NCBI RefSeq assembly: GCF_026210795.1
Contig: NC_089439.1
Span: 3,534,001 to 3,598,000 of the forward strand
Reading direction: 5' to 3'
Length of the DNA stretch: 64,000 nucleotides
Origin: Rhizophagus irregularis
Lineage: Eukaryota; Glomeromycota; Glomeromycetes; Glomerales; Glomeraceae
Of the stretch, positions 14,410 through 33,505 are shown piece after piece. Below the pieces are notes generated by a model, which saw nothing but the letters and a program-made list of their open reading frames with translations, was not told where the DNA came from and made no database searches. A program made the position numbers and the translations under genes. Position 1 is the stretch's first letter; every line of letters starts with the position of its first letter.

Positions 14410-14620
14410 TCAAAATAAGAATCGATTTAAGAATCAATTAATTACAATTAATTAAATCTTGAGATTCGATTCTAAGATTTAATTTTCAATTCTAATTAAA
14501 TCAATTCTAATTGATTTTATATATCAAAAAAAAATAATCATCATTTGTGATTAAATTTGTGCTGCAACAATTTTACTAGGCAAAAATCTATTTTTTTTTA
14601 CAGTAATTTTGTTTAGACGT

Positions 14621-15931
14621 TGTAGCCATAGATACTGGAGTAATCGTATAATATGGAGGAATAATATGGAATAAAAGATCAAACGATAGAAAGTCACATG
14701 ATGGGATAAAATTAACCGGAAAGGATAAACTTTTAGGAGAAGGAATGATCTACATGATGTAATGTTTATTAAATGATTAACGGAGAACCAATAGATCAAG
14801 TGGGGAGTTGATCGATGTGGCTTAGCAACCAGTTTATCAAGTTCAACAATAGGAACAATTAGGAGGAGTAATCATAAGCCACAAATGGTAAATCATATAA
14901 AAAGGAAGGATAGCGAATTAAAGGAACAAAAAAAATAGGAACATGTAAAATATTGATGAACTGCAGCCGCAGTAGAAGAATAGCTGACGAGACGCAGTAG
15001 AAAAGATAGCACAGCCACAAAAGATGGATCTTTACGATATAATATTTGAAAGATTATTTTATTTTAAAGAAAAGATAGCACAGCCACAAAAGATGGATCT
15101 TTACAATATAATATTTGAAAGATTACTTTATTTTAAAGAAAAGATAGCACAGCCACAAAAGATGGATCTTTACAATATAATATTTGAAAGATTATTTTAT
15201 TTTAAAGAAAAGATAGCACGGCCACAAAAGATGGATTATGTCTTTACAACATAATATGCGAAAGATTATTTTAAAGAAAAGATAGCATATTAAAATAGTA
15301 TAACATATTAGAAAAGATAACATATAAAATAGCATATAAGATAGCGCATAAAAGATAACATATAAAATATTAGAAAGAAATAAGAAGTAGGAAAAGAAAG
15401 AATAAGAAAGTTGGTTTAAATAGGAGCGGAATGGGAAGTGAATTCCACAGTCGTTAGATACGATGTAAAACTTTAAGTAAATTAGTTAATTGTGAATTTT
15501 ATGAAGAATAAATAAAATACCCTTTGATATGAAAATAAATTGTTTCGATTGTTTTTGTTACTATTTTCTTATGATGAAAAAGTAATTTTGTTTAATTAAT
15601 TGTTAGTAGAGCGTAATGTTATTTTAAAGGTAATAGGTTCGCCCTAAACTTTATTGTAATGTTCGCTTAATTAATTTTAATTGGACAAATTCATGGTGAA
15701 TTTAATGTCATAACAAGAATTATGAAATGAATAAAATATAAACTTTTGTAAAGAGAACTATCGTATTTTGAAGGAAGATAATGGATGAAATATCGTGGCG
15801 AGAGCTATCGCAATTTGAAAGTTAAGTAGCAATAAAACTAAACCAAGCAAGAATATTAATGTTTCGTGGAGAACGAATATACATTAAAGCAGGGAACTTT
15901 GTTTACCGCCGGGTGGCAGACGGGGGTGACA
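14621..15931 (+). repeat. 5' LTR
   Basis: It begins TGTAGCCATAGATACTGG, ends GGGGGTGACA, and has canonical TG/CA ends. It contains an internal 69-bp tandem repeat (15001-15290). It is identical to the 3' LTR as far as I could compare, apart from one transition near its start. Confidence 0.95.
15001..15290 (+). repeat. 69-bp (23-codon) tandem repeat in the LTR, with an in-frame small ORF
   Basis: Units opening AAAAGATAGCACAGCCAC start at 15001, 15070, 15139 and 15208, with a truncated fifth near 15277. Each is exactly 69 bp. An ATG at 15024 opens a 76-codon frame that reads through the units as MDLYNIIFERLLYFKEKIA-type repeats. The exact multiple of three keeps the frame open. It may be a leader ORF, or the length may be coincidental. 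Confidence 0.85.
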
Positions 15932-15932
15932 A

Positions 15933-15952
15933 TTTGGTGCATGCTCCGAGAA
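15933..15952 (+). promoter_or_regulatory. Candidate primer-binding site
   Basis: Immediately after the 5' LTR, TTTGGTGCATGCTCCGAG begins with the TGG expected for pairing with a tRNA 3' CCA end. Which tRNA matches cannot be decided without a tRNA set. Confidence 0.6.
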
Positions 15953-17629
15953 AGGAAATGTTGACTTTGCGTCGACATTTTGACTATCTTCTTATAGTCA
16001 AGTACCTATGCGGTATTAAGAAAGAAACGGTTAACAACTAAGTGAATTGATCACTCGCGAAGGGAAGGATCGTTCCGATCATGGTACCGACGTGGTATTC
16101 CAAAGAATCTGAACTCAGAAAAAGAGGTATTAGAATTAAAATATAATATTGGGGAAAAGGTTGTAAGTACCTGAAAAACTTTAAAATGGGAACGGGCGAA
16201 ATAGCGATATTATACACCTACCTTAGGAATTATAAAAAGAAGGATGCGGTGATATGATGGAATATAATGAACTCGTTTCAAAGTAATAGATTTGTTACAA
16301 GAATATCCGGAAAAGTATTGTAGTAAGTCACAAAAGTTGTCGTCTTTAAAGTTTTCGCGCTAATAATTGTAAAACCAAGAAATTAAGGAAGCCCTCGTAA
16401 GATGTTGTATTCTGGGAGGGGCACCATTGTATTTTGCAGATGCCAGAAGTTCCTGGGGATACAATGTTGTAACGAAAAGTTGACGGGTAAACTATAAACT
16501 CAAGGGTTGCGTGGGAACCTGTTACCAAAACACAAGGGTTGCGTGGGAACCTATTTAAAACACAAGGGTTACGTGGGAACCTATTACAAAAACACCGGCT
16601 GTAAATATAACTTCTTCGGATGGGAATCGAAATAATTGGACTCAGACGTGAGTGGAACATCTCCCTACTGAAAGCATTTTGAGAATGCGTAACTGAATTT
16701 ACAAGGCAAAAAGAGAAACCATCGTGAGTAAAATTTCTTCAGATGAAACTGGAAGCATTGAGGGAAATGCGCAACTGAACTCATGAAAAGAAGATAAGTA
16801 TTATGGGATAAGATGAATAGCAAACCTCGAAACTACTATACTTCATTGGGAAGGTAAAGGCAAGCCGAGTATAGGTTATTGAATTGTAAAAGATAATAAA
16901 TAAGAAGAAACACCGTTAAATAAGTATAAATGCGTGTGTCGCATAAGTATAAATGCGTGTGTCGCATAAGTGTAGATGCGTGTGTCGCATAAAGTATAAT
17001 ATGTTGTGTGTCGATATAATGGTTATGATAAGAGTTAGTACAAGATTAAACAAAGAAGATATTTTGCGTAATATTAAATATTTGGATGTAAAGATTACAT
17101 ATATAATGAAAAAGAACTAAAAAATTCACGAACTTTAGAAGTTATGAGAATTTTGAAGTTCGTGAAATGCGAAAATTATAAATTTCGGTGATAAAAGGAA
17201 ATTTTGAGGCGCAGTAAAAACTTAGAAAATTTTTGAAATTTTTAGAATGCGCAGTAAAAACCTCCGCGGTCTGAGGAGATTGTGGACTTAGAATAATTTT
17301 TGAATTAATGGCGCAGTAAAATATATACATGAAATTATGAAAGATAAAAATAGCGGAAGAAACTTGTGAAAATCAAAAAAGGGGATTTAAAGATTGAAAG
17401 ATCAACATGAGAATATTATGAATAAGTAAAAGATTTAGAAGAATAAGTTGTTAAATGAATATTCTTAATGAAAGAAAGATTATACATTCAATATATGTAA
17501 TAGAAAAGGACGATATAGTGAAGGATGGTTAGAAGATCAAAATAGAAGCGATAAAAATGATATATAAGAGAGCGGAATTTCAATTTGAATTCTGGATGAA
17601 TATTTATAATAATTTAATTGGAGTATACG
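15953..17629 (+). other. Long untranslated leader of the LTR element with short tandem repeats
   Basis: There is no convincing gene in these 1.7 kb. There are three copies of ACACAAGGGTTGCGTGGGAA at about 16498-16590. A 23-bp unit containing AAATGCGTGTGTCGCATAAG runs four times at about 16918-17010. GCGCAGTAAAA recurs three times at 17210-17325. These may be packaging, dimerisation or ribosome-recruiting structures; that is inference. Confidence 0.6.
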
Positions 17630-20600
17630 ATGGAATGGTACCATCAATGGGAAAGTGAATATAGGACACATAAAGAAGAACATGAGTTAAGAGCGGGAGA
17701 ATTAGATGAATGTTTAAATTGTGAATTATGTCATCCGATAGAAAATGAACCAATGGTATTCAAGAAATTTTGGGATGCATTATTTAAGTTCGAAGATACA
17801 ATAATAATATATAATAATGTAACGATCAAGGGAGTAATAGATTTATTAAGTATGGATAATTCAGAAAGAGAAGATACAATACACAAGGGAAAATGTAGAG
17901 ACATAATGGATAGAATAACAGAGTCAATAAGATATAGAATACAACCAAAAATGAAAGAGAAAGGATTACGAACAATTATATTAGTAATTGTAAGAGATTG
18001 TATTGAAGGAGATTTAGAGAATGAAGTATTTGATAGATTAATTGGGAATCCTGAATTAATAGAACACAAATATATTTTGGAAGATTGGGATGTTGAAAGA
18101 AGGTTTGAAAAATTTTGGCAATGGTACAAGATCACATCGAAAGAAGTTAAACCATTACGGGTAAAGATGGGAGCAATAAAGACATTCAGGGAATTACTTT
18201 ATGAAGAAGAAGGAATAGCTACGAATGAGGAGAAAGTAAAAGAATTAATGTCCAATATGGAATATGGGAATATAGACATAGAAAATGTTCACGAATATCG
18301 CAGGAATATGGTACAAAAGATAATAAGAATATTTATAGATACTAGGGGCTTTATAAAAGAACCAGAAGATTCAGAAAGCGAAGATAGTTTAGAAAGTTAC
18401 GAAATGAAAAAGAATTTTAACACGAGTTTATATCTTAGATTTGAAAGATTTAGGTACTGGTGGAATGACAAATATGAAGGTAAACAAATACATACATATC
18501 ATGAAAATGATTCACCAGAATGGTTCGAGAAGATGTTATCTGAGGGAGAAAATTTGCAAGAAGATACTGTAAGAAAACTAATGGATAGTATGACATTTAA
18601 AGATAGCGAAGATATATATACAAGAAATCCTATCATATTGAGAATAGATGATGGTGTAATAGAATGGGTTGTAACAGATTTAAAAGAAACAATGGAAAGA
18701 ACACAAAAATTCAAGTTAGTGGAGATAAAGCAAGAAGAAGATAATGAAATGTATGATTCTGAAGAAGAAATAGAAATAATAGTAGAAGATAAAACGTGGA
18801 AGTTAAGTGAAATAAGGACAGGATTAAGACAACTGATGGTAAATCCAAAAGAAGAATTCATCAGAGAAATAATGAAATTTGGAATAAAAGAAAAGATAGA
18901 GACGGGAGTACTGTTGACATATGATTTTATAAGATATTATATTTTTCAGGAGGGGAAATTTGATAAGTCTGAAGACATAAAGGAGTGGATAGATTTGAGT
19001 ACAAAAATATGTGGTAGATGCAATAAACAGAAATTAGATTATGTGATATCGGAAGAGGACGGCAGATGTGAAGAATGTAATCGGGAAATACGGGAAGATG
19101 AACAAGATGAATTAATAGAACTAAAAAACAACTTAGAAAAATTAGGATACGAAATAGATGTATCGGAAATTCAAAGAATAAAAAATTTTGGAGTTAATAA
19201 TCGAATAATAGTAACAGAAGGATTCATAGAAAGGTATATGGGGATAATAGAATTAGAAGATAGAGAGTTAAGAAAAGAGGTGCACAAATGGTTAAATGAG
19301 AACACAACCTGGTGCGAAAGATGCGAAATAAGATGGATGAATGATATGTTTAGATTAGAAGGAACTATATGCAAAGATTGTGAGGAAGAAGATATTGATG
19401 AAATTGATGATCGGGTAAAAAGATTGCAAAAGATTTTTGAAGATATTGGAACAATGATAACTGAAGAAGAATTGTTAAGATTAACTAGTATGGGATATAC
19501 AGATGGAGAAATTTTAGATAAAGAATTCATTGAAATCTTTCAAGAAAATAAGAATGAGTCGGAAAAAGAATTGAAGAAAAAGTTAGATAAGTTGTTGAAA
19601 GAACAAGCAGGAGTAATGGATAGTGAAGAAAGTGGTGAAAAGAGTGATAATGAAGAATCAGAAGAAGACAATACGGATAATTCAGAAAAGATTGGAGAAA
19701 TATTAAGTCCGGATGAAATATGGGACGGAAGTGATGAAGATTTTGAAGAAGAAGAATCTGAAAATGAAATCGAAAATGTTATAAATACAGGAGGTTTTGG
19801 TCTGAATCAAAATTCAGATTCGAATAGTTCATTAAATTTTAAAAATTCTGACACAGAAAGTGAAATATCTGATTACAATTTACAAGAATTATTTCAAGAG
19901 AATATAGTAAATATGGCAAATGAAGCACAAATAAGAAGAATAATGGAGAATGCTATGGGATTGGCACCAAATGCATTAGATAATGCGTTAGGAGCAGGAC
20001 AGACTTTGGCGGATAGGATTCAGACTGCAGGAATGGGGGGAATAGTAGGTATGCCAACTTTTAGTGGAAAAGAGGATGAAGATATTAATGATTGGATTAG
20101 ACAATTTGAGATAGCATTTACAGTAAGTGGACGACCAGAAGGAAATGTTGGAGGAGGTGTATGTAGACAAAATAAGGCGAACATAGCTATAACTTGTTTA
20201 AGAGGAATTGCATTACAATGGTATAATGAGGAAAAAGAAAGGGTAGCAGCTAATTTAGTGAATTGGTGTGACCATAATGAGGACAGGAATTTAAAAAGAA
20301 GATTAATCGACAGATTTACTAGGAATGATGTTCAAAGAAGAAAGATGTTAGAATTAACAAGAATTAGACAGGGAACAAATGAAAGTGTTGAGGAATATAC
20401 TAGAAGATTTAGGTCAATATTAAGAGTTGCAACTAGAGGTCATGCGTTAGATGATTTATATCAAGTGAATTATTTTATTCAAGGGTTAGATGCTATGCTA
20501 GGTTATCATGTTAGGAGAAGCAATCCGACGAATCTGAATGATGCAGTTAACGAAGCAAAAAGAGAAGAGGAAGCGAAGGATGAGTTGTTAATAAAAACAA

Positions 20601-21535
20601 CGGGGTTAGATATGAAACGAGTAGGACAAGAGAAAAACATGGAAGAAATTTTGAAAGAAGAGACAAATGAATACAAAGGAATGAATCCAATTGCGAAAGA
20701 ATTACAAAAAAAAGAAGTTAAAAGTGAGGAATGGGATGAGTTAATTGATGGAATAAAAAGGTTGGAAGCACATGTAATGCAAAGAAATGAAGCGTATGTA
20801 ATGCAAAGGAATAGGAATGATAGGAGACCGATTGGAAATAATAATGTCCAAAGAAATAATATGAACTGGGATAGAATGACTTGCTATACATGTGGAAGAA
20901 AAGGACATACTTCTAGAGTTTGTAGGGAAGGTCAAAGAAGATCATATGGAGGAAATAATAAAGGGTCATATAGCCAAAATAATCAAGTTAATTACCTTGA
21001 TGAAGAATATTATGGTGAAGGATATAATGTGTATAATATGGAATATAATAATGAATATGATGGATATAATGAGGGTGGTGGATATGATAACTATAATAAT
21101 GGATTCGATGGATACGAAGCGAATAACTATGAAGATGAGGAGAGATATGATATGTTCCCAGTACCACCTAGAAAGAGTGAAAGAAATAAAGACAAGGTTA
21201 TGAACGATGAAAGAGATAGAAGAAGAAATGTACAATGGCAAGGACAACAGCAAAAAGCACAGGAGAATAATAAGAGGGGTTTTACAAAAGAACAATTACA
21301 GAAAGGATATGAAACTAGAAAGAATAATAATAGGTGTCACAATTGTGGACAACAAGGACATTTTGCTAGAGAATGTACAAACGAGAAAGTGAAGTTAAAT
21401 CGAAATATACCAAATGTTGGAGATTTTGATCCATTTGAGCAATTTGTAAATTCAAGCGTACCAATTAATTGGGGACAAATGATGAATGAAAGACCAGAAG
21501 TAAGGAAGAAATTATTAAATGGTTTGAGATATTGA
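17630..21535 (+). CDS. Gag polyprotein with a large N-terminal extension
   Basis: The structural protein of the LTR element; the ATG at 17630 is the first in frame and gives about 1301 aa, roughly three times a usual Ty3 Gag. The N-terminal 700 residues hold a CLNCELC motif, repeated helical modules, and two zinc-ribbon-like modules starting at about C461 (CGRCNKQK...CEECN) and C562 (CERCEIRW...CKDC), then an acidic tract. The retrotransposon Gag core lies around residues 807-1000 (GMPTFSGKEDEDINDWIRQF, then LKRRLIDRFTRND and VEEYTRRFRSIL). Two CCHC knuckles follow, CYTCGRKGHTSRVC at about 1085 and CHNCGQQGHFAREC at about 1236. It ends at TGA (21533-21535), in the same frame as protease. The extended N-terminus is unrecognised and could be a host-derived module. 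Confidence 0.93.
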   Translation: MEWYHQWESEYRTHKEEHELRAGELDECLNCELCHPIENEPMVFKKFWDALFKFEDTIIIYNNVTIKGVIDLLSMDNSEREDTIHKGKCRDIMDRITESIRYRIQPKMKEKGLRTIILVIVRDCIEGDLENEVFDRLIGNPELIEHKYILEDWDVERRFEKFWQWYKITSKEVKPLRVKMGAIKTFRELLYEEEGIATNEEKVKELMSNMEYGNIDIENVHEYRRNMVQKIIRIFIDTRGFIKEPEDSESEDSLESYEMKKNFNTSLYLRFERFRYWWNDKYEGKQIHTYHENDSPEWFEKMLSEGENLQEDTVRKLMDSMTFKDSEDIYTRNPIILRIDDGVIEWVVTDLKETMERTQKFKLVEIKQEEDNEMYDSEEEIEIIVEDKTWKLSEIRTGLRQLMVNPKEEFIREIMKFGIKEKIETGVLLTYDFIRYYIFQEGKFDKSEDIKEWIDLSTKICGRCNKQKLDYVISEEDGRCEECNREIREDEQDELIELKNNLEKLGYEIDVSEIQRIKNFGVNNRIIVTEGFIERYMGIIELEDRELRKEVHKWLNENTTWCERCEIRWMNDMFRLEGTICKDCEEEDIDEIDDRVKRLQKIFEDIGTMITEEELLRLTSMGYTDGEILDKEFIEIFQENKNESEKELKKKLDKLLKEQAGVMDSEESGEKSDNEESEEDNTDNSEKIGEILSPDEIWDGSDEDFEEEESENEIENVINTGGFGLNQNSDSNSSLNFKNSDTESEISDYNLQELFQENIVNMANEAQIRRIMENAMGLAPNALDNALGAGQTLADRIQTAGMGGIVGMPTFSGKEDEDINDWIRQFEIAFTVSGRPEGNVGGGVCRQNKANIAITCLRGIALQWYNEEKERVAANLVNWCDHNEDRNLKRRLIDRFTRNDVQRRKMLELTRIRQGTNESVEEYTRRFRSILRVATRGHALDDLYQVNYFIQGLDAMLGYHVRRSNPTNLNDAVNEAKREEEAKDELLIKTTGLDMKRVGQEKNMEEILKEETNEYKGMNPIAKELQKKEVKSEEWDELIDGIKRLEAHVMQRNEAYVMQRNRNDRRPIGNNNVQRNNMNWDRMTCYTCGRKGHTSRVCREGQRRSYGGNNKGSYSQNNQVNYLDEEYYGEGYNVYNMEYNNEYDGYNEGGGYDNYNNGFDGYEANNYEDEERYDMFPVPPRKSERNKDKVMNDERDRRRNVQWQGQQQKAQENNKRGFTKEQLQKGYETRKNNNRCHNCGQQGHFARECTNEKVKLNRNIPNVGDFDPFEQFVNSSVPINWGQMMNERPEVRKKLLNGLRY

Positions 21536-21538
21536 CTA
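21533..21538 (+). promoter_or_regulatory. Candidate readthrough stop, UGA-CUA, between Gag and protease
   Basis: Gag and the downstream protease frame are in the same register and are separated only by this TGA, which is followed directly by CTA. UGA CUA is an established leaky-termination context in fungi and animals. The fused product would be Gag-protease. Readthrough itself is inferred. Confidence 0.6.
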
Positions 21539-22141
21539 CACTCGGGGGAATTGAAGAATATTAATCAGAAAGAAGAAAAATCACAAGCAACAAGATGTAA
21601 TATAATAATTGAAGGAAAAATGATTAGAGCATTAGTTGATACAGGAGCAGGACCTTCAGTAATAACGAATGAACTGAGAAAAGAATTAAATATACCAATA
21701 ACGAAGGAAAGTAATGTCGTATTAACAATAGCAGATGGAAATAACATAGCTTCATTAGGAAGAGTGGAAATTAGAATAGAAATTGACGAAAATTTAGAAA
21801 TACCTTTGGAGTTCGAAGTAATCGACTCGAGAAGAAAAGATTTAATATTAGGAACTGATTTATTAAGATATGGGATAATAAATATGAAAGAAGGTCTGTT
21901 AACAATAGAATGGGATAATGGAATATATGAAATACCAATTGATTTTAGAGGAAAGAAAAATGTTGAATTTGAGGAGTCAGGGAATAGGGGTGAATTTAAT
22001 GGAGATCCAAAGAATATAGATGATATAGATGGCAATTCTAGTGAAGAGTCAGAGAGTGAAGATGAATATGAGGAGATGGAAAAAGAAGAGTTGTTATCGA
22101 TTGTAAAAACTGATAGAGAAAAGAGGGATGAGGAAAAATGA
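21536..22141 (+). CDS. Retroviral-type aspartic protease, continuous with Gag through a stop
   Basis: The open frame following the Gag stop encodes a pepsin-like retropepsin: LVDTGAGPSVI at about 21629-21661 with the catalytic Asp in DTGA, then LGRVEI and a DLILGTDLLRYG block near 21838-21872 corresponding to the family's ILGxD segment. An acidic C-terminal tail follows (SSEESESEDEYEE). There is no ATG at the expected beginning, which supports expression as a Gag extension. The stop TGA (22139-22141) overlaps the ATG of the next ORF in ATGA. Confidence 0.88.
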   Translation, partial: LHSGELKNINQKEEKSQATRCNIIIEGKMIRALVDTGAGPSVITNELRKELNIPITKESNVVLTIADGNNIASLGRVEIRIEIDENLEIPLEFEVIDSRRKDLILGTDLLRYGIINMKEGLLTIEWDNGIYEIPIDFRGKKNVEFEESGNRGEFNGDPKNIDDIDGNSSEESESEDEYEEMEKEELLSIVKTDREKRDEEK

Positions 22142-24471
22142 ATGGTCTTGGCTTTCTGAATGAAGGAGAGACGGTAAAGATGCTAAATGAGAGCAAAGAA
22201 GAAAAATTTGAAAAGAAAACACATCTGGGAGAAATGAGCGATGAGGAGAGAATAGCATTTAAAAAATTGATAAGGGAATATGAAGATATATTCGAATATG
22301 ACGAAGAGAAACTGGGAAGGATAAATACAGTTAAACATGAAATAATAATTGAAGAAAATCAAGGACCAATAGCACAAAAGAGATATAAAGAAACTGATGA
22401 AAAAGGAAAGTTTATAAAGAAAGAAATTGAACAATTGTTGAAGATGGGGAAGATAAGAGAATCATGGAGTAATTGGGCATCTCCAGTAACGTTAGCAGGA
22501 AAGAAAACTGGAAATTATAGATTTTGTATAGATTATAGAAAGCTGAATAATGTGACAAAGTCAGATGAATATCCTTTACCCCGGATAGACGAATTGTTAG
22601 AAAAATTTAGAAAGGGAAGTTGGTTCACAAGTTTGGACTTAGCAGCAGGATATCATCAAGTAGAAATGGCAGAAGAAGATAAAGAGAAAACAGCGTTCAT
22701 TTGTTCACAAGGATTATATGAATACAATGTTATGCCATTTGGATTGAAGAATGCACCAGGAACATTTCAGAGATTAATGGATAAAATATTAAAAGAATAT
22801 ATAGGAGAATTTGTTACAGTGTATTTAGATGATATAATGATTTATTCAGAAGATTTTGAGAAACATATAGAGCATGTAGATAAAGTATTGAGTAAATTGA
22901 GAGAGAATAATATGATTGTGAAATTGAAGAAATGTCAGTTTGGATTGAGAAATATAAATTTCTTAGGGCATATAGTAGGAAGAGATGGATTGCGACCGGA
23001 TAAAGAGAAAGTTGAGAAGATAGAAAATATGAGGAGGCCGAAAACTGTCACAGAAGTAAGATCATTTTTAGGATTATGTTCATATTATAGGAGATTTATA
23101 AAAGGTTTTTCGAAGATAGCAAAACCTTTGCTTAACTTAACAAGAAAGAATGAAAAGTTTGAATGGAAAGAAGAACAACAAGAAGCATTTGACGTATTAA
23201 GGACAAAATTGACAGAAAATCCAATTTTAGTATATCCGGATTTCAGCAGAGAATTTATATTGATAACTGATGGATCTAAGATAGGATTAGGAGCAGTGTT
23301 AGCTCAAATGAATGAAGAAAATAGAGAGGTTGTAATAGCTTACGCAAGTAGGAGTACAGTTGGAGCAGAGAAGAATTATCCACCAACAGAATTGGAATGC
23401 TTAGCGGTATTTTGGGGAATACAACATTTTCAGAAATATTTAGTAGGAAGGAAATTTATAGTGATAACAGATCACGCAGCATTAAAAGGATTAACAGATG
23501 GAAAGGAACAAACAGGAAGGAGAGCAAGATGGGTAATGAAATTACAACAATTTGATTTTAAAATAGTACATAGAAGTGGAAAGAAAATCAAAAATGCAGA
23601 TGGATTATCAAGACTGAGATTTAAAGAAAAAGAAACAGAAAGGAACGAGAATCAAGAAATAACAAAAATAGAAAGTAATAAGGGGAAATTGAGATATATC
23701 AAATTTAGGAATAAGTGGTATAATGCTAAAAGATTTAAAGGGAGATGGGATGATGAAAAATATTTTACCGATAAAGAAGCAATACTTTTGAATTTGGAGG
23801 AAAGGACAGAAAAAGAATTATTAAAGAAATTGGGAAGAGAAAATAAGCCACAAATTATTATAATCGACGGAGTGGATGGATTAGGAAAAACAAGTATAGT
23901 ACAAAATTTGATTAAAGAGTGGGAAAAGCAAGGATTAAAAGTAAGATTTAATACATTCAAAAGGAGAAGAAAAGACAAAGGTGAATTTCACGAATCAAAA
24001 TTAGAAACAGAATGGAAATTTAGAAAGGAAGTAGTAGAACAAATAAACAGAAGAATGTTAGAATATGATGAAGATACAGATATAATAATTCTAGACAAAT
24101 CGCCATATTGCGAATATTATTATCAGAAGACGAAAAGTTTCAACAGAGGATTAATTACTCCACATGGGAACCATGAGATGGAAAAAGAAATATTCAGATT
24201 AAAAGGAACAATAGATGAATCAATAGTGATATTTTTGGAAAAAGATGGTGATGTATGTTGGGAAAATTATATTGGAAGAGAAACGAAGAAATTGGAGAAA
24301 TCGTCATACCCAACATTAAAGAAAAATGAATATTTGGACATGGTTAAAATGTTTAAAGAAAACCAGGATGTATACGAAGATACCAAAAGATACAGTCAAA
24401 TTGAAGTTAGGAATGACGATAGTAGTTGGAGAAAAGTATATAAGGAGATAGAAAAACACCAAAGAGCTTAA
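22138..24471 (+). CDS. Reverse transcriptase-RNase H fused to a thymidylate-kinase-like domain
   Basis: A 777-aa protein. The RT has YRFCIDYRKLNN, FTSLDLAAGYHQ, MPFGLKNAPGTFQ and the catalytic YLDD at residues 229-232. RNase H follows, with the first Asp at about 378 (TDGSKIGLG), TELECLAV near 420 and TDHAALKGL. After a 70-residue linker, the C-terminus (about 570-777) is a P-loop kinase-like domain. It has a Walker A GVDGLGKTS at 578-586 preceded by a hydrophobic strand, LDKSPYCEYYYQ at about 652 matching the DR(Y/S) substrate-binding block of thymidylate and deoxynucleoside kinases, a hydrophobic strand SIVIFLEKD, and a basic lid-like region (RETKKLEKS). In usual Ty3 Pol the integrase follows RNase H directly. 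Kinase function is inferred from motifs; another P-loop nucleotide kinase is possible. Confidence 0.9.
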   Translation: MNGLGFLNEGETVKMLNESKEEKFEKKTHLGEMSDEERIAFKKLIREYEDIFEYDEEKLGRINTVKHEIIIEENQGPIAQKRYKETDEKGKFIKKEIEQLLKMGKIRESWSNWASPVTLAGKKTGNYRFCIDYRKLNNVTKSDEYPLPRIDELLEKFRKGSWFTSLDLAAGYHQVEMAEEDKEKTAFICSQGLYEYNVMPFGLKNAPGTFQRLMDKILKEYIGEFVTVYLDDIMIYSEDFEKHIEHVDKVLSKLRENNMIVKLKKCQFGLRNINFLGHIVGRDGLRPDKEKVEKIENMRRPKTVTEVRSFLGLCSYYRRFIKGFSKIAKPLLNLTRKNEKFEWKEEQQEAFDVLRTKLTENPILVYPDFSREFILITDGSKIGLGAVLAQMNEENREVVIAYASRSTVGAEKNYPPTELECLAVFWGIQHFQKYLVGRKFIVITDHAALKGLTDGKEQTGRRARWVMKLQQFDFKIVHRSGKKIKNADGLSRLRFKEKETERNENQEITKIESNKGKLRYIKFRNKWYNAKRFKGRWDDEKYFTDKEAILLNLEERTEKELLKKLGRENKPQIIIIDGVDGLGKTSIVQNLIKEWEKQGLKVRFNTFKRRRKDKGEFHESKLETEWKFRKEVVEQINRRMLEYDEDTDIIILDKSPYCEYYYQKTKSFNRGLITPHGNHEMEKEIFRLKGTIDESIVIFLEKDGDVCWENYIGRETKKLEKSSYPTLKKNEYLDMVKMFKENQDVYEDTKRYSQIEVRNDDSSWRKVYKEIEKHQRA

Positions 24472-24486
24472 AATTATATTTCCAAA

Positions 24487-24828
24487 ATGGTATTAGGAGA
24501 TTGTTATATGAATTGGTTTCTTACCTATCGAGTAAAGGTCGATAAGATATGGAAAGTGACTATAAAAGAAGAAGAGAACGAAACAATTATCCATTTAAGG
24601 ATTGAAGAAGAAGAAGACTTCATACTAGTAGATGTACACATTATAATAAGACTAAAAGAGAAAAAGGTGAAATTAATTATGGAAGATGGAAACAATATGA
24701 TAATAGAAGGAAGACCAATAGAAAAAGGATTAGGATGGGTACGATCTAAATTGATTATAGGGAATGAAAAATATATAAGGAGGATAGAAATACCAAGGAT
24801 CAAAAGTAAATCAAGAGATAAAAATTAA
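24487..24828 (+). CDS. 113-aa ORF of unknown function inside the LTR element
   Basis: It begins with ATG 15 bp after the stop of the RT-kinase ORF, in the same frame, so a single readthrough would join them. The sequence is Lys/Glu/Ile-rich with alternating hydrophobic patterns (IWKVTIKEEENETIIHLRIE, then VDVHIIIRLKEKKVKLIME) suggesting a small beta-sheet domain, and ends in a basic tail. No family is recognised. Its composition matches the neighbouring ORFs of the element, so it appears to be part of it rather than a recent insertion. It lies with the kinase domain between RNase H and integrase. Confidence 0.6.
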   Translation: MVLGDCYMNWFLTYRVKVDKIWKVTIKEEENETIIHLRIEEEEDFILVDVHIIIRLKEKKVKLIMEDGNNMIIEGRPIEKGLGWVRSKLIIGNEKYIRRIEIPRIKSKSRDKN

Positions 24829-24859
24829 AAATATATGGAACAGTTATCACGACGCTTTA

Positions 24860-24971
24860 TTTTTTACAACACCTTAATTTTTACAACACCTTAATTTTTA
24901 CAACACCTTAATTTTTACAACACTTCAACCCTTTATAACATTTCAACCTTTTACAACACTTTAGCTTTTAG
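24860..24971 (+). repeat. 17-bp pyrimidine-rich tandem repeat upstream of integrase
   Basis: TTAATTTTTACAACACC repeats about four times perfectly, then degenerates into TTCAACC and TTTACAACAC units. The coding strand is T/C-rich here, while all flanking ORFs are strongly A/G-rich. It ends CTTTTAG at 24965-24971. This resembles an extended polypyrimidine tract and a 3' splice site placed in frame before the integrase ATG (24987). Confidence 0.8.
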
Positions 24972-24986
24972 AATTACAACATAGAC

Positions 24987-26174
24987 ATGGAAGAGGAAGA
25001 ATATAATAGGATAGCGAGGAATATCAATGACGAACGGGAATATGAAATTATAGGAGGATTAATTTACAAAATAAAAGATGAGAAAAGACTAAGAGTGATA
25101 AGAAAATACGAATTTGAAGGATTAATGTACATAGCTCATGATCATGAATTATCAGGACACTTTGGAATAGATGCAACGTATAATAGGATCAAGGATGGGT
25201 ATTATTGGAAAGGGATGAGAAAAGATGTGGAAGCTTATGTCAAATCATGTAATAATTGTCAGAGAAGAGGAAAACCAATAGGAAAACATGAACTGAATGT
25301 AATCAAAGTTATAGAACCATTTTATCAAATTGGGATTGATGTAGTGGGACCATTACCAGCAACAAAGAGAAATAATAGATATATAGTTACAGCGATGGAT
25401 TATTTTACAAAATGGCCTGAAGCAAAGGCATTGGAAACAGCAGATGCTAAGGAAATTGCAAGATTTATTTATGAAGATATAATATGTAGGCATGGATGTC
25501 CAAAGAAGATATTGAGTGATAGAGGAAGTCATTTCAATAATAAATTAGTGAAATCATTAATGGAGGAATTTCAGATAAAACATAACTTTTCGACGCCTTA
25601 TCATCCAAAAACTAATGGGTTAATTGAAAGATTTAACAAGACATTATGTGAATCATTAGCAAAGCTAAGTAATATCGAAGATTGGGATTTGAAAGTACCA
25701 GGAGTATTGTTCGCGTATCGAACTAAAAGGAATGATTCAACGAAAATGGAACCAGGATATTTAATATATGGGAGACAAATGAAGACGTTATTAGATTTAG
25801 AAGATAAGAAAATTACCATGGCAGAGAGAGTTAATGGGTTGATCGAAGGATTACCAAACATTAGGAATCAAGCTAAAGAAAATGTCAGGAAATCTCAGGA
25901 AAAACAAAAATCGTACCATGATAAAAAGAATAGAATAAAGCAGAAATTACAAATCGGAGATAAAGTACTATATTATGATGCAGCAAAAGAGAAACAATGG
26001 TCTGGAAAGTTAGAAGAAAAATGGAAAGGACCTTATTATGTACATGAGATAATTTCTAAAGGATCATACAGAATTAAAACTATGGAAGGGAAGATATTGA
26101 AAACACCAGTAAATGGTGAATTACTGAAAGAATATATTGATAGGACAAATTTTGAAGTAATAGTTCGAATTTGA
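24987..26174 (+). CDS. Ty3-type integrase, separate ORF
   Basis: A 395-aa integrase. The N-terminal HHCC zinc domain reads HDHELSGH and ends CNNCQRRG. The DDE catalytic core has D118 (IGIDVVGPL), D178 (LSDRGSHF) and E214 (NGLIERFNK), with the canonical 35-residue spacing between the last two. The C-terminus has a GPY/F-type module (LQIGDKVLYY then WKGPYYVHEI). It joins the ends of the cDNA to host DNA. Unlike normal Ty3 elements it is not fused to RT-RNase H: 515 bp, a stop and a different frame separate them. No stop lies between 24972 and the ATG in this frame, so a splice acceptor at 24971 would also give an open frame. Confidence 0.95.
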   Translation: MEEEEYNRIARNINDEREYEIIGGLIYKIKDEKRLRVIRKYEFEGLMYIAHDHELSGHFGIDATYNRIKDGYYWKGMRKDVEAYVKSCNNCQRRGKPIGKHELNVIKVIEPFYQIGIDVVGPLPATKRNNRYIVTAMDYFTKWPEAKALETADAKEIARFIYEDIICRHGCPKKILSDRGSHFNNKLVKSLMEEFQIKHNFSTPYHPKTNGLIERFNKTLCESLAKLSNIEDWDLKVPGVLFAYRTKRNDSTKMEPGYLIYGRQMKTLLDLEDKKITMAERVNGLIEGLPNIRNQAKENVRKSQEKQKSYHDKKNRIKQKLQIGDKVLYYDAAKEKQWSGKLEEKWKGPYYVHEIISKGSYRIKTMEGKILKTPVNGELLKEYIDRTNFEVIVRI

Positions 26175-26189
26175 TGGGACTCAAATTTT

Positions 26190-26204
26190 AGGTGGGGGGC
26201 AAAC
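26190..26204 (+). promoter_or_regulatory. Polypurine tract
   Basis: AGGTGGGGGGCAAAC directly precedes the 3' LTR and is the expected plus-strand primer. Confidence 0.8.
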
Positions 26205-27515
26205 TGTAGCCATAGATACTGGAGTAATTGTATAATATGGAGGAATAATATGGAATAAAAGATCAAACGATAGAAAGTCACATGATGGGATAAAATTAAC
26301 CGGAAAGGATAAACTTTTAGGAGAAGGAATGATCTACATGATGTAATGTTTATTAAATGATTAACGGAGAACCAATAGATCAAGTGGGGAGTTGATCGAT
26401 GTGGCTTAGCAACCAGTTTATCAAGTTCAACAATAGGAACAATTAGGAGGAGTAATCATAAGCCACAAATGGTAAATCATATAAAAAGGAAGGATAGCGA
26501 ATTAAAGGAACAAAAAAAATAGGAACATGTAAAATATTGATGAACTGCAGCCGCAGTAGAAGAATAGCTGACGAGACGCAGTAGAAAAGATAGCACAGCC
26601 ACAAAAGATGGATCTTTACGATATAATATTTGAAAGATTATTTTATTTTAAAGAAAAGATAGCACAGCCACAAAAGATGGATCTTTACAATATAATATTT
26701 GAAAGATTACTTTATTTTAAAGAAAAGATAGCACAGCCACAAAAGATGGATCTTTACAATATAATATTTGAAAGATTATTTTATTTTAAAGAAAAGATAG
26801 CACGGCCACAAAAGATGGATTATGTCTTTACAACATAATATGCGAAAGATTATTTTAAAGAAAAGATAGCATATTAAAATAGTATAACATATTAGAAAAG
26901 ATAACATATAAAATAGCATATAAGATAGCGCATAAAAGATAACATATAAAATATTAGAAAGAAATAAGAAGTAGGAAAAGAAAGAATAAGAAAGTTGGTT
27001 TAAATAGGAGCGGAATGGGAAGTGAATTCCACAGTCGTTAGATACGATGTAAAACTTTAAGTAAATTAGTTAATTGTGAATTTTATGAAGAATAAATAAA
27101 ATACCCTTTGATATGAAAATAAATTGTTTCGATTGTTTTTGTTACTATTTTCTTATGATGAAAAAGTAATTTTGTTTAATTAATTGTTAGTAGAGCGTAA
27201 TGTTATTTTAAAGGTAATAGGTTCGCCCTAAACTTTATTGTAATGTTCGCTTAATTAATTTTAATTGGACAAATTCATGGTGAATTTAATGTCATAACAA
27301 GAATTATGAAATGAATAAAATATAAACTTTTGTAAAGAGAACTATCGTATTTTGAAGGAAGATAATGGATGAAATATCGTGGCGAGAGCTATCGCAATTT
27401 GAAAGTTAAGTAGCAATAAAACTAAACCAAGCAAGAATATTAATGTTTCGTGGAGAACGAATATACATTAAAGCAGGGAACTTTGTTTACCGCCGGGTGG
27501 CAGACGGGGGTGACA
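26205..27515 (+). repeat. 3' LTR
   Basis: It has the same length (1311 bp) and termini as the 5' LTR and carries the same four-unit 69-bp tandem repeat at 26585-26874. It is followed by ACGT and then older inverted-repeat DNA. Confidence 0.95.
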
Positions 27516-27519
27516 ACGT

Positions 27520-27901: not shown

Positions 27902-29506
27902 CTATAAAAATCGACACTCCATCCTGCAAAAGCTGTTATTAAGTAGCACCGTTAGACGACCCATAAAACCCGAAAAGTGATTAAACCAAGGCAAACCATA
28001 TTTCATCGAGTTCTTCAACCAATCGGTTCCGGAGTCACGTGAATCGTGTAGGGTCGGAGGTGGTAAAGATGAGTAAGGTATGTACATCGACAAAGGCAGA
28101 TTGGATGGCTTCGGAGTAGTTTTCAACTTATAGGTAATGTTCATCGCATTTTCCCATCTACTTTTCTCATAAGAACGCGGATTCCAGATTCGTCTTCTGA
28201 ATTTCTGGACAAAATTGTTATGAATAGCAGCGATAACTTTAATCGCAGAAGTTCTCGGAATGGATAAATCAACAAATAAGTCGATGAAAAGTTTGGGTAA
28301 GCAACCACGGATAAGGGCGAAGGAGGACCAATTTGTAGAAGAAAAGGACCAGCACGAAAGAGAAGTAAGTTTAGCTATAAATGGAGTAGGATCAGTATCA
28401 ACCAAATTACTCGCTTCCAGAAGTTTGGAAATCAAATGATTTTGATAAGATTGGAGAATTTGCTGCATAGGCAGACGTCGTCTTTTGCACATAAAAAGGT
28501 GCATCAGGTCTTCCATGCGGTCGATACAAGAACGGCAAGTTAATTCGTCCATGTATAAGTCTGGTCGGGTCCGTTTAAGCTTTTCCAGTGTAGGCAAATC
28601 ATCCAAGAAAAGTTTGAATTTAAAGGTTAGGTGTCTTGAAGCGTGCTCAGGAGTAAAAGATGCATCATGAGAGGGCTTAAAATTTAAGGTGAACCAAGTA
28701 AGTTCCCAGTCAACAATATAATCTATATTAATTGATAATAAAGTAATAAAGTGAAATCGCGTTAAATTTAACAAATCGCGCATTAACTGCGTTTGATAAT
28801 ATTGTTTTAGGAGGTGTCGTGGATTAAATTCACAAACAACATCATTGTCATAAATTAAGACAAAATCATGGGCAGAGGCCAGGTCCATTCCAGAGATCAA
28901 AATACTGGTTGACGCGGTATGAGCAGTATTGGCCAAGGAGTCAGCAAAATCGTTTAAGTAATTGCCAGAATGAGCTTTAACTTTGACGGGAAGGACAGTC
29001 AAATTTTTTGAGAGGATGGTTCGCTCGATAATAACCCAAAGTTCAAAATTTGTAGTTTTATAGTACAAACGACTATTTGAATAAATAGAGGAAAAACAAC
29101 TTCGGAGACCATCAATGGCAGTTTGCGAGTCAGTATAAATAGTAACTTCTGAGTCACGTGGAGAAATAGTTAAAACTGCATAAATAGCAGCAGCCTCAGC
29201 ACGAGAAGAAGAGGGATTATCACGTATGAGGCCGTGAGCATAAGTGGCGATAGAGTTAGGAAAACCTGCATCAGGGACTATTTGCATCCAAGACCAGCCC
29301 ATAGAGACATCGGGAGTGCCTAAATTAATAAGAGACCCATCAGTGAAAAAGGTATAACGCGAATCCGAGGAAACGACCAGCGGGGAATTTGCAAAGACAG
29401 CAGCAGCCGAGGATTCAATAGTGACAGGAGTATTAGGGGCTATAGCGGTATCTGCAGAATAAGAATCGGAATCAAAATCCAATCTACTATAATAAAGACG
29501 GACCAT
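27902..29506 (-). pseudogene. LINE ORF2, RNase H and C-terminal zinc region
   Basis: The open 534-codon frame holds a type I RNase H: FFTDGSLINLG (first Asp), SRAEAAAIYAVL (Glu), IYTDSQTAIDGL (second Asp) and VKAHSGNYLNDFAD (last Asp). A Cys/His cluster (CRSCIDRMEDLMHLFMC) follows, as in many LINE C-termini. It overlaps the RT frame by 20 nt in another register. Its ATG is probably incidental, since in the ancestral element this is the C-terminal half of the RT protein. Confidence 0.85.
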
Positions 29507-31700
29507 CTTCTATATCGCCAGAGGTAAAAGGTGAAGTCACTTCAGAGGTAGTACGTCTAATTCGTTCATTGGTAGTGGGCAAAATAAGCGAATGGCGTAG
29601 AGAGACCGTAGTTGTACATAGGGTTAAATCAGCATTCCGTTTTTTGGAAGGAGGTAGGGGAATATGGGCAGCGCAGCCAGGGCAAGGAGAAAGTCGAATA
29701 AGATCTCCAGGCGAAGATTCACAATCAGGAGAGACCCAATGGACAATGGAACAAGTACCACGACTTGTTTGGACCAAAAGTTGTTTGCCGAAGATGGGAG
29801 AACCAAGATCGTCTAACGTGACAATCCAATTTTTTGTAGTGGGAGGAGAGGATAGACAAGGTTCCAATTCATAAAATGAAGAAGCATTCGTATGCAGAGT
29901 AATAAACTGATCCAGCAAACGATTATTGGAGTCAGGAACAGTGGTAGCTTGTTGGATATCTTTATACCAATAAGGGATACGGCCAGGGCCACGTCGTCCA
30001 ACCAAATTATCATAGTAAGCCTTCCAGGAAATTAAATGAGTTCCTTGAGGAGTAACAAGCTGAGATAAATAAAACAGTTGTCGTTTACGCAGGATGGGAA
30101 AATAAGCTTTAAAGGCTATAGGCGTCATGCATTCAAATAAAGGAACGCATCCATCTATCAAGGATAAATTTGGAAGCTTCGATAATTGAGTGTGAAGCAA
30201 CCGAAAAGGAGTAGAAGACAAGAGAGCAATAGTGCATGCGATATAATCTTTTTTGAAAGAAAATAGAGAAGACCATATAGACCAATCTTTAATTAAAAGG
30301 GGAGAAATAGGAATCAAAAAATTATATTGAATTAAACTCAATCTATAAATAAAAAGAGATTGAATAAAAACAGAAGAAGAGTTAGCCATTAAAAATAAAT
30401 TAGTAATATGACATTGTCGTTGATGAGCAAACAAATTAATCAAGCCCAAGGCATGAGACAAAAATAAAATGGAATTAGGTAAAGAACGAGAAAAGTTTGC
30501 TTTATGCTTTACGACAGATCGTATACTTCTCGTTATTAGGTGACAATCAGATTCAGATAAGTGAGTAACTTGCATCCGATATTCAAGTTTCGGTATAAGG
30601 ACGGCATTATGTAAATACGCAACTTGTTTGGAAGAGAGCTTTGCAGGTCGGATGGTCGCAGCAAAGGAGCAGCATTCGCGTTTGAGTTGCTTCTTGACAA
30701 AATCACGGGAGCTCTTAATGTTAAACCAAACACCTAAAAAACGAAAAGAAGTTGTCATGGAAATTGGGGTAATAGTAATGGAAGGAACACTATTTAAAAA
30801 GGATAAATCCAAATTAAAAGTGATAGGGGATAAAGTGGAATTCGGAGTCAAAGGCAACGAATTAGTGATTAACACATATTTGTTATGATTGGCAGAAGTG
30901 TTATTGATCTGATAAAATTCTTCAGTAATGGATAACATAAATTCCATGCCAGCTTTTGACGAGGAAATAAGAGTAGAGTCATCCATAAATACTAAATTAT
31001 TAATCTTCAAATCAAGAGAAGGACTTGAAGAATCAATTAAAGACGGTGTAGAAAGAACATAAGGGTCCATCATCTCATTCTTCAGAATAGTAAGTAAGGG
31101 ATCAATATAAATGACCCATAAAAGAGGAGAAATAACTTCGCCTTGGTCAATACCAATGCGAACCCTATAGGCAGGCGTAGATCCATGAGCAGTGAAAACG
31201 CGATTAGTGCGTTTCATAAAAAGTGAAAGAATAAACATAACAGCGGAGGCTGGAAGACGTATACGTTCTAAAGCGAAACGTAACATCGTTAAATCAACAG
31301 AATCAAAAGCTTTAGAAATATCTTGGGAAAGAATCCAAAGTGGGTTTTTGTTGATATCAGCATCATGGATAATAGATTCTAAAGTAATAATAGGGTCGCG
31401 GCAAGAACCTCCAGGAAGACCAGCGAAGTTACCACCTTTAAGAACATCATGCGAAGCCATAATGGTAGAAAGGCGATTATAAAAAAGTTTGACAAGAGAT
31501 TTCCTAATCACTTCAAGTAGGGTAATAGGGCGAGTATTTTTTAATTGACACTTCCATTCGTGAGGTTTGGGGATAGGAAAAACCATTGCTTGTCGCCATA
31601 AATCAGGAATATCAGCTTTGGAAAGACATGCTTGAATCAAAATGAGAAGTAAAGCCGAGGTACGAGATCCGAGATGTTTGAGCATTTCATAAGTAATCAT
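29487..31700 (-). pseudogene. LINE ORF2, reverse transcriptase domain
   Basis: An open 737-codon frame with RT landmarks: PIPKPHEWKCQLKNTRPITL, LSQDISKAFDSVDL, IDQGEVISPLLW and FMDDSTLI, the last being the catalytic xxDD block (FMDD in place of YxDD). A long thumb/connection region follows. The frame probably begins upstream: sequence between about 31765 and 31700 still encodes conserved-looking residues (DEWLSTVSSTPNGKASGPS). It is separated from the endonuclease frame by two shifts and from RNase H by one. Confidence 0.88.
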
Positions 31701-31755
31701 GGAAGGACCAGAGGCTTTACCGTTAGGAGTGGAAGAAACGGTGGATAACCATTCA

Positions 31756-33505
31756 TCAGGGTAGGGGATTCATTAAAGAATCATAGATGGAGGAGGACAC
31801 ATCATCCATAGGTTGATAGGCAGAAGACCATCTATCAGGTAGTGTATCGATAGATACAGGAGGAGTGGACTTTATAGGTACAAAGTTTTGGAAATGGTTA
31901 ACAACAGCATCATCTATGTCCTTAGGAGCAGTCAACAACTGAGGTTGAGAAGGATGGTCGATGAAGACGCGGTCCAAAGTGATACGGCGACGGGTGCGAA
32001 AGCGCTGAATCAATAAAGGAGGAAAGGTCAGTTTCAAAATTATTATTCCTATCGTCCAAGTGAACACGGATGGAGGAGTCTTGGAATTCTTTTTCTTGTA
32101 GTAAATGAAATCCCCGTAAGGATTTTGAAATATTGGATAAATCATCAAGAAGTGACTTGAAATTATCTTGTCGACATGATGAAAGAGAAAAGGGCAGAGT
32201 AGGAATGAAAGTAAAAATTTTCTTATATAATTGAAGAATGTTCTGAAGTCGATGCAAATGTATAGACCACTTATGTTCATGAGCAGCAGAATAAGTTAAA
32301 GGATATTTGCGCAATAGACGTATCGAATGCATTAGGCGATTTAAAAACCGATAATTTTGAGTTAAAATTTCCAGATCTTTAGGAACCTTAGGAGTATAAT
32401 TATTGCCAACAGTAGAAGAAGGTAAAGTAGCGTTGGCGGATTTAAGGATTCGCGATTGAAGGTATTCGCACATCTGATTGATATGCCAGGAGGAAAAGGT
32501 TGATGGTGAAACATCACATAAGGCATCAGCTTTGTCAGCAAATTCCGTCCATTGAGTATCAGTTACAGAATCAAATTTGAAAATGCGACGGGTTTGGCGC
32601 TTAAGTTGACGAGCGCGAGCCAATTTGGTAGAGGCAAAAAGTAAAGACATATCATAATATGTGATGACAGGGTTGTGATCAGATGTGCAGATGTCTTGAG
32701 CATTAAAAATACAAGCAGTAAGAGCAAATCCTTTGAGAAGAGGGCAGGACCATACATAATCAACACGAGTAATGTGGTCATTGCGTTGAAAGGTACCTAA
32801 AGAATCGGAAAGATTAATGGGTGTAAAATCTTCATATCCATGGGAAAGGAGATGAAAAAGTAATCGGTGTATATGTTTTGAAGCAATTTGAGGTTGATTA
32901 AAATAAATAGGATAATATTTATCTAAATGCATATTAAAATCGCCACAAACAGCATGATAAAAACCAGCTTGTTTAGTAAGGATAAGTTGTTGAATAAGCA
33001 AATCAATAGTGTCAGTGCGCAGAACACTTTCAGCAGGTGGGGGAGGGATATAAATAACAAATATACGCAATTTAACATTGCCTTTGAAATATAAATCAAC
33101 AGAAAGCAGTCGTGAAGAATGGGATTTAAAGTCTTGTACATGTGATGCAAGAGAATTTTCTATAAATAGGGAAACACCACCAGAAGAGAGAATTTGTTTA
33201 GAAGTATCCAAATTCGAAGAAAACACAGTATAATTAGAAAGTCGTTTGGATAAAAACTTCATTTGTTTAGGGTGGATATGAGTATCAACAATACCACCAA
33301 AGGAAATATGTTTTAGAGAAAAGAAGGTAGAAATCTCTTCTAATTTAGTCTGACCATGCATTTTAAGGCCATTGACATTAAAAGAGGAGATATTAAATGA
33401 ATTGGGGATAGGAGAAGTGTTACTTGGGAGAAGAAAATAATGATTCATGTGAAAAAAGTTCAGTAACATTATTGGGGTTGGGAGGGTTTCGTACAAAGGT
33501 GTCAT
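31756..33505 (-). pseudogene. LINE ORF2, APE-type endonuclease domain, frameshifted at its 3' end
   Basis: The endonuclease/exonuclease/phosphatase fold is clear: SFNVNGL, IVDTHIH, GDFNMHLD, RVDYVWSC and SDHNPVITYY, covering the Asn, Glu/Asp and His catalytic positions. It nicks target DNA to prime reverse transcription. The first frame runs 33505-31922. The protein appears to continue in another frame (about 32010 to 31756: RTRRRITLDRVFIDH and DDVSSSIYDSLMNPL) before shifting again into the RT frame. Confidence 0.85.

Follow-up and report, generated by a model that had tools for sequence, protein, structure and literature searches.

The 64,000-nucleotide stretch of Rhizophagus irregularis contig NC_089439.1 analysed here (the window) contains a Ty3-type long terminal repeat (LTR) retrotransposon in which a putative nucleotide kinase is encoded between RNase H and integrase. 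As judged from the related copies, this kinase appears to be a standing part of one Ty3-type LTR lineage in Glomeraceae, the family to which Rhizophagus belongs; its substitution pattern clearly indicates purifying selection, and it has been swapped between element families as a cassette. There is about an even chance that these arbuscular mycorrhizal fungi harbour a Ty3 lineage that brings along a deoxynucleotide kinase belonging to a new subfamily, with an invariant DK in place of DR, which would be delivered with the reverse transcriptase (RT) as an exchangeable cassette and would let the element make its own precursors of deoxynucleoside triphosphates (dNTPs).

The kinase forms the C-terminal part of an open reading frame (ORF) of 777 amino acids (aa), following RT at residues 122-280 and RNase H at 343-472, in agreement with a first-pass annotation that had described a fully open RT-RNase H frame ending in a P-loop domain. 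That annotation's Walker A motif GVDGLGKTS (residues 578-586) and its LDKSPYC (652-658), in the place of DR(Y/S), were also read at these positions. Its proposal that the kinase replaces the integrase did not hold: a separate downstream ORF matches the Pfam integrase families H2C2 (76.4 bits) and rve (47.6 bits), the Pfam order along the element is gag-protease-RT-RNase H-integrase, and the kinase is inserted before the integrase. The element (14621-27515) has the LTRs, target-site duplication and tRNA-Gly primer-binding site of a Ty3-type LTR element and, as judged by eye, a polypurine tract; at a second genomic place with the primer-binding-site complement (L073), there was no tRNA. The LTRs, already noted as near-identical, differ by one mismatch over 1311 bp and ACGT flanks both ends, so the insertion is recent; the LTR end was placed using TG...CA and the flanking ACGT repeats.

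The segment appears to be a nucleotide-kinase module of the fold shared by thymidylate kinases (TMPKs) and deoxynucleoside kinases (dNKs). Its 218-aa tail is colinear with the Pfam family Thymidylate_kin (PF02223), residues 17-183 aligning with profile positions 1-168 of 185, at 21.9 bits (E 1.6e-4), below the gathering cut-off of 27. The same profile matches 39 of 45 kinase-family members, one relative (P0027) reaching 30.2 bits. Pfam dNK (PF01712) matches six of the 45 at E<=0.001, with best scores of 25.1-25.2 (gathering cut-off 27), and no dNK match was listed for the window copy at E<=10. A template-free AlphaFold2 (AF2) model from 45 sequences, superseding an earlier one from 10 sequences (pLDDT 74), was confidently predicted (pLDDT 92.3) and superposes on TMPK and dNK structures, not on an unrelated P-loop fold. 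The predicted model has the TMPK fold with its P-loop and equally the dNK fold, and the fold scores for the two tie. The earlier label of thymidylate-kinase-like stands as regards the shared fold and the colinear profile match; the substrate could be dTMP or another deoxynucleoside monophosphate. Because the model fits these structures and the domain recurs in 140 genome matches, the assignment is regarded as far above chance. FtsY, also considered as the family, was rejected: its similarity is limited to the P-loop and neighbouring residues, whereas the AF2 model and the Thymidylate_kin profile cover the whole domain.

Sequence constraint centres on Walker A, a basic loop, DKSPY and a lid-region arginine. 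Thymidylate kinases carry DR(Y/S) or DR(Y/H) and dNKs carry ERS; the DR(Y/H) motif is absent here. The 52 fetched loci that retain at least 90% of the domain in a single frame, drawn from the 140 matches with more weight on families A (that of the window copy) and B, all have DKSPY; its D and K are invariant in the 45 sequences. Walker A is intact as scored in 50 of these loci, the misses being one substitution in L021 and a segment that starts within the motif in L052. The acceptor-side loop is strongly basic (KRRR). In a profile alignment with a single partner, the glutamate after strand 2 of L061, a dNK-like ORF elsewhere in the genome, aligns with an invariant asparagine of the kinase family followed by basic residues; this glutamate is taken to be the dNK general base. 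Families A and C, like the metagenomic relatives, retain an N-terminal extension (about residues 513-571) that was not detected in families B and D.

The junction between RNase H and kinase is not unique to the window copy, recurring in many copies and in several Glomeraceae species. A tblastn search of the genome (146.7 Mb, 32 contigs) with residues 500-777 gave the 140 matches, which are not equivalent to elements as some elements give two; 21 cover approximately the whole query at 95-100% identity, and most others lie near 78%, 65% or 60%. In protein searches that reach only relatives sharing short exact words, the named relatives come from R. irregularis (the close hits carry the name R. 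irregularis DAOM 197198), R. clarus, R. diaphanus and Glomus cerebriforme, all of them Glomeraceae as far as checked; there are also many metagenome proteins, several labelled 'thymidylate kinase' by their source. R. irregularis, R. clarus (P0032) and G. cerebriforme (P0100) each have RNase H and kinase joined in a single protein. In families A-C the kinase shares its frame with RNase H; in family D (L057, L058), P0027 and P0031 it is fused to integrase instead, so that its place between RNase H and integrase is kept while the frame partner changes. Among 108 RT-RNase H rows, which comprise nearest relatives only (107 of 346 candidates scored) and include two rows from one broken copy, a same-strand kinase match follows within 6 kb downstream in 105; for two of the remaining three rows it lies 10-16 kb downstream, again on the same strand. 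A broken kinase copy resembling P0054, which has its own Met start, lies behind a coiled-coil-like ORF (by eye) in L003 (about 1278-2065), a 3.2-kb locus without an RT match; a coiled-coil-like stretch also precedes the kinase of R. clarus P0037.

Purifying selection on the kinase was estimated as Nei-Gojobori dN/dS with 1000 codon bootstraps (intervals in brackets) over seven pairs, not all of them independent; dS is near saturation in several inter-family pairs, and weight was given to pairs whose dS is at most about 1. The ratio was 0.098 (0.054-0.177) between the window copy and family B (L005-L027), 0.097 (0.048-0.166) for L055-L060, 0.142 (0.079-0.231) for L047-L060, 0.161 (0.085-0.306) for L057-L054, 0.047 (0.010-0.120) for L027-L037, 0.225 (0.132-0.369) for L005-L060 and 0.260 (0.158-0.406) for L027-L055. 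For the same pairs, dN/dS was 0.020-0.144 in RT and 0.048-0.267 in integrase.

Comparison of families demonstrated that the kinase has moved between backbones. The window copy's family A and L047 are close in RT (dS 0.054), RNase H (dS 0.041) and the kinase N-terminal extension (98% aa identity), and their kinase domains are 65% identical (dS 1.32). Families A and B share 89% aa identity in the kinase (dS 0.52), 72% in RT (dS 1.46) and 63% in integrase (dS 1.54). Compared in steps of 50 bases, the window copy is 96-100% identical to L047 up to 23849 and 48-84% thereafter to 24499, and its identity to L027 of family B is 69% at 23800, 82-98% across 23850-24449 and 30-60% beyond; blastn against L027 gives 87.7% over 23817-24456 and 68-74% on either side. 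The exchanged piece, approximately 23850-24456, is nearly exactly the catalytic domain, from just 5' of the P-loop to near the ORF end, and the 5' breakpoint falls where the interval marked in the first-pass annotation begins. In 18-row trees the window copy groups with family B for the kinase (100/99) and with L047 for RT (100/99), and forcing the kinase or RT grouping on the other data was rejected by the approximately unbiased test (p 5e-84 and 3e-4); these groups were picked after the trees were viewed, and the breakpoints weigh more. Template switching between co-packaged RNAs is a likely route for the exchange. As the integrases of the window copy and L047 (92% identical, dS 0.48) have diverged beyond their RTs, the two have a further mosaic history, of which the presence of a B-type kinase in a C-type backbone is independent.

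Within the same RT clade (100/99), L062 has RT-RNase H and integrase ORFs about 200 bases apart without a kinase. The branch separating the kinase-bearing rows from the rest has a support of 75/62, which is not decisive between a gain within or at the base of the clade containing L062 and a loss in L062. For eight more distant Ty3 elements (L063-L070, 1.7-kb pieces), comparison by eye with the list of 140 matches showed no kinase match close downstream; a match about 4-5 kb upstream of L063 belongs to locus L045. Outside proteins with Ty3 domains, the nearest relatives found were 13 metagenome proteins (P0134, P0142-P0153), the fuller ones of 366-391 aa; nine of the 13 have a NUDIX domain listed N-terminal to the kinase, scoring 38 bits in P0134. 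P0134 shows 35% identity, these relatives also carry DK(T/S)PY, and none of the 107 matches of P0134 in the genome covers its NUDIX part. The combination of NUDIX and kinase offers a lead, and only a lead, towards nucleotide metabolism. An origin from host TMPK or dNK genes was not supported, the TMPK exons (L002/L004) and L061 matching the family profile weakly (38.6 bits for L061 and 17.5 for one host TMPK exon); with a branch length of 10, the place of L061 in the kinase tree is uninformative. L061 (C28:1224011-1224604, - strand) is a single dNK-like ORF with 112 bits to Pfam dNK in a 336-aa frame, present in R. irregularis alongside its own TMPK gene; dNKs are mostly missing from fungi. 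For a viral or prokaryotic origin, scans with a few short patterns, in which absence counts as weak evidence, found no relative in viral contigs (P0134, A1 and A4) or genome contigs (A4) and, in phages, one weak match limited to the NUDIX part.

The function slightly favoured here is that of a deoxynucleoside monophosphate (dNMP) kinase raising dNTP supply for synthesis of complementary DNA (cDNA). Being made within the pol product, the kinase would probably be packaged with RT, where its most likely reaction would be dNMP + ATP -> dNDP + ADP. Reverse transcription consumes dNTPs, and nuclei in hyphae are mostly outside S phase; the added dNTP would feed cDNA synthesis in hyphae where nuclear replication is mostly absent. 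Joined to RT-RNase H, such an enzyme would act in the particle or cytoplasm, at a point comparable to dUTPase, and by this analogy a role in dNTP supply may reasonably be proposed. Several observations weigh against it. A shared fold alone shows no function, the Thymidylate_kin score of the window copy is sub-threshold, and solved TMPKs gave weak sequence matches mostly confined to the P-loop region, with FtsY ranked first. An invariant lysine replaces the arginine of DR(Y/S) or ERS, and the kinase dN/dS exceeds that of RT in five of the seven pairs, most widely in family D (0.161 vs 0.035). The kinase is dispensable to the backbone, as judged from the related L062, its packaging with RT is assumed, and the integrase sits in a separate ORF.

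A deoxynucleoside kinase, salvaging deoxynucleosides instead of monophosphates, would bring the same kind of benefit to reverse transcription and is an unlikely alternative, albeit the foremost: the fold scores tie with dCK, dGK and the Drosophila and Giardia dNKs, the family profile prefers L061 to the host TMPK exon, six members match Pfam dNK, and D-K-S-x-Y-x-x-x-Y resembles the E-R-S-x-Y-x-x-x-Y of dNKs. However, Thymidylate_kin matches far more members, and the invariant asparagine and basic residues occupy the position of the L061 glutamate, the presumed general base. Slightly less probable still is an ATP-binding P-loop module with a mainly structural or regulatory role in the RT complex (assembly, processivity), not one in dNTP supply, as could be read from the lysine in DKSPY, the in-frame fusions to RNase H or integrase, and dN/dS values that indicate constraint without specifying function; yet constraint is concentrated on the kinase-site motifs, and exchange between elements whose RTs are 72% identical is more in keeping with a self-contained enzyme than with a closely fitted subunit. 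The KRRR loop, the DK motif and the NUDIX fusions of the nearest non-Ty3 relatives, NUDIX being a fold that also handles modified nucleotides, could instead indicate a same-fold kinase acting on a nucleic-acid 5' end, a modified nucleotide or a small molecule, which is improbable given that the best structural neighbours are deoxynucleoside and dNMP kinases and that LTR retrotransposition is not known to require such a step. A chance open frame or a captured host fragment decaying in one copy has nothing beyond the sub-threshold Pfam score in its favour and is refuted by the number of genome matches (140), the occurrence in four named species, the strong purifying selection and the kinase at 105 of 108 RT places; it retains hardly any probability.

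Set beside known TMPKs (PF02223; S. aureus, Aquifex and yeast structures), the element domain is about 13% identical to the S. aureus enzyme and differs in the lysine for the DR arginine, an N-terminal extension of about 60 aa and its encoding by a retrotransposon. It differs from dNKs (PF01712; dCK, dGK, Giardia dAK) in the invariant asparagine in place of the host dNK-like glutamate and in remaining below the Pfam cut-off. The NUDIX-kinase proteins are the closest non-Ty3 relatives found, with DK(T/S)PY in common and the NUDIX domain in front as the difference. In the parts of the cited sources covered here, dUTPases are described inside pol in several retroviruses and in some fungal Ty3 and bdelloid rotifer LTR elements, with replication in non-dividing cells as the rationale for the viral enzymes (PMC2864245, PMC5408684). 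These are likewise nucleotide-metabolism enzymes in pol, and the retroviral one may sit between RT and integrase; unlike the kinase, they are another enzyme and fold, their position varies in fungal elements, and no kinase is named in those parts (PMC2864245, PMC5408684). Orchid Ty3 elements have similarly gained an extra enzyme, in their case an AlkB-like m6A RNA demethylase in an additional ORF and in plants, according to the portion covered (PMC9289625). No retrotransposon with a nucleotide kinase is mentioned in the covered portions of PMC11075540, PMC8647823, PMC2864245, PMC5408684, PMC2774666, PMC6338049 and PMC9289625. LTR elements with extra domains are a known kind; a search of the open-access literature, with subscription papers and repeat databases outside its scope, found no earlier report of a nucleotide kinase among them, nor of a Ty3 lineage with such a fusion, as the first-pass annotation had supposed.

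Table 1. Features of the kinase-bearing Ty3-type element (positions in the window)
Feature	Position	Strand	Details
Target-site duplication ACGT, 5' copy	14617..14620		flank sequence
5' LTR	14621..15931	+	1311 bp; TG...CA; internal 69-bp tandem repeats
Primer-binding site TGGTGCATGCTCCGAG	15935..15950	+	complement of tRNA-Gly(GCC) 3' end plus CCA
gag ORF	17618..21535	+	1305 aa; Retrotrans_gag at 856-958; two CCHC knuckles; long N-terminal extension
Aspartic protease ORF	21551..22141	+	TGA overlaps next ATG (ATGA)
RT-RNase H-kinase ORF	22138..24471	+	777 aa, open
Kinase-module N-terminal extension	23674..23850	+	about residues 513-571
TMPK/dNK-fold kinase domain (predicted)	23850..24471	+	Walker A 23869-23895; DKSPY 24094-24108; lid-region Arg714 codon 24277-24279
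Small accessory ORF	24487..24828	+	113 aa
Integrase ORF	24987..26174	+	395 aa; H2C2 zinc finger and rve core
Polypurine-tract-like stretch	26190..26204	+	precedes 3' LTR; judged by eye
3' LTR	26205..27515	+	pairs with 5' LTR
Target-site duplication ACGT, 3' copy	27516..27519		flank sequence

Within the element (Table 1), approximately 850 gag residues with CxxC pairs lie ahead of the recognised gag domain, gag and protease are separated by a stop at 21533-21535, and the ATGA overlap of protease stop and RT start at 22138-22141 suggests termination-reinitiation. About six 17-base tandem repeats (TTTTTACAACACCTTAA-like) occupy 24857-24970, and TTTTAG follows immediately upstream of the integrase ATG; integrase might be expressed through this region, acting as an internal promoter or as the end of an intron. 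The small accessory ORF between kinase and integrase has no Pfam family match above noise and has matches in each of the 21 family A loci fetched (L005-L025); a 54% identical homologue lies upstream of the kinase in L071 (1473-1784), and P0135 also has one. This ORF appears to be another movable module of the same Ty3 lineage. Elsewhere in the window, a LINE-like element is represented by three ORFs at 27902-33505 on the - strand, about 400 bases past the 3' LTR, with matches to RNase H, RT and, below the cut-off, an endonuclease; an ORF at 6179-7486 matches Transposase_21 (tnp2), which occurs in CACTA-type DNA transposons.

Retroviral dUTPases and the host factor SAMHD1 show that reverse transcription in resting cells can be held back by the size of dNTP pools. 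If the proposed function is true, an LTR element that carries a nucleotide kinase would answer this limitation in a new way, and in a coenocytic fungus about whose dNTP economy little is known. The proposal is directly testable, given the clean exchange of the cassette, the related element that lacks a kinase and a domain that is small and separate. It would also define a new kinase subfamily, and could explain some of the 'thymidylate kinase' names given to metagenome proteins as parts of retrotransposons.
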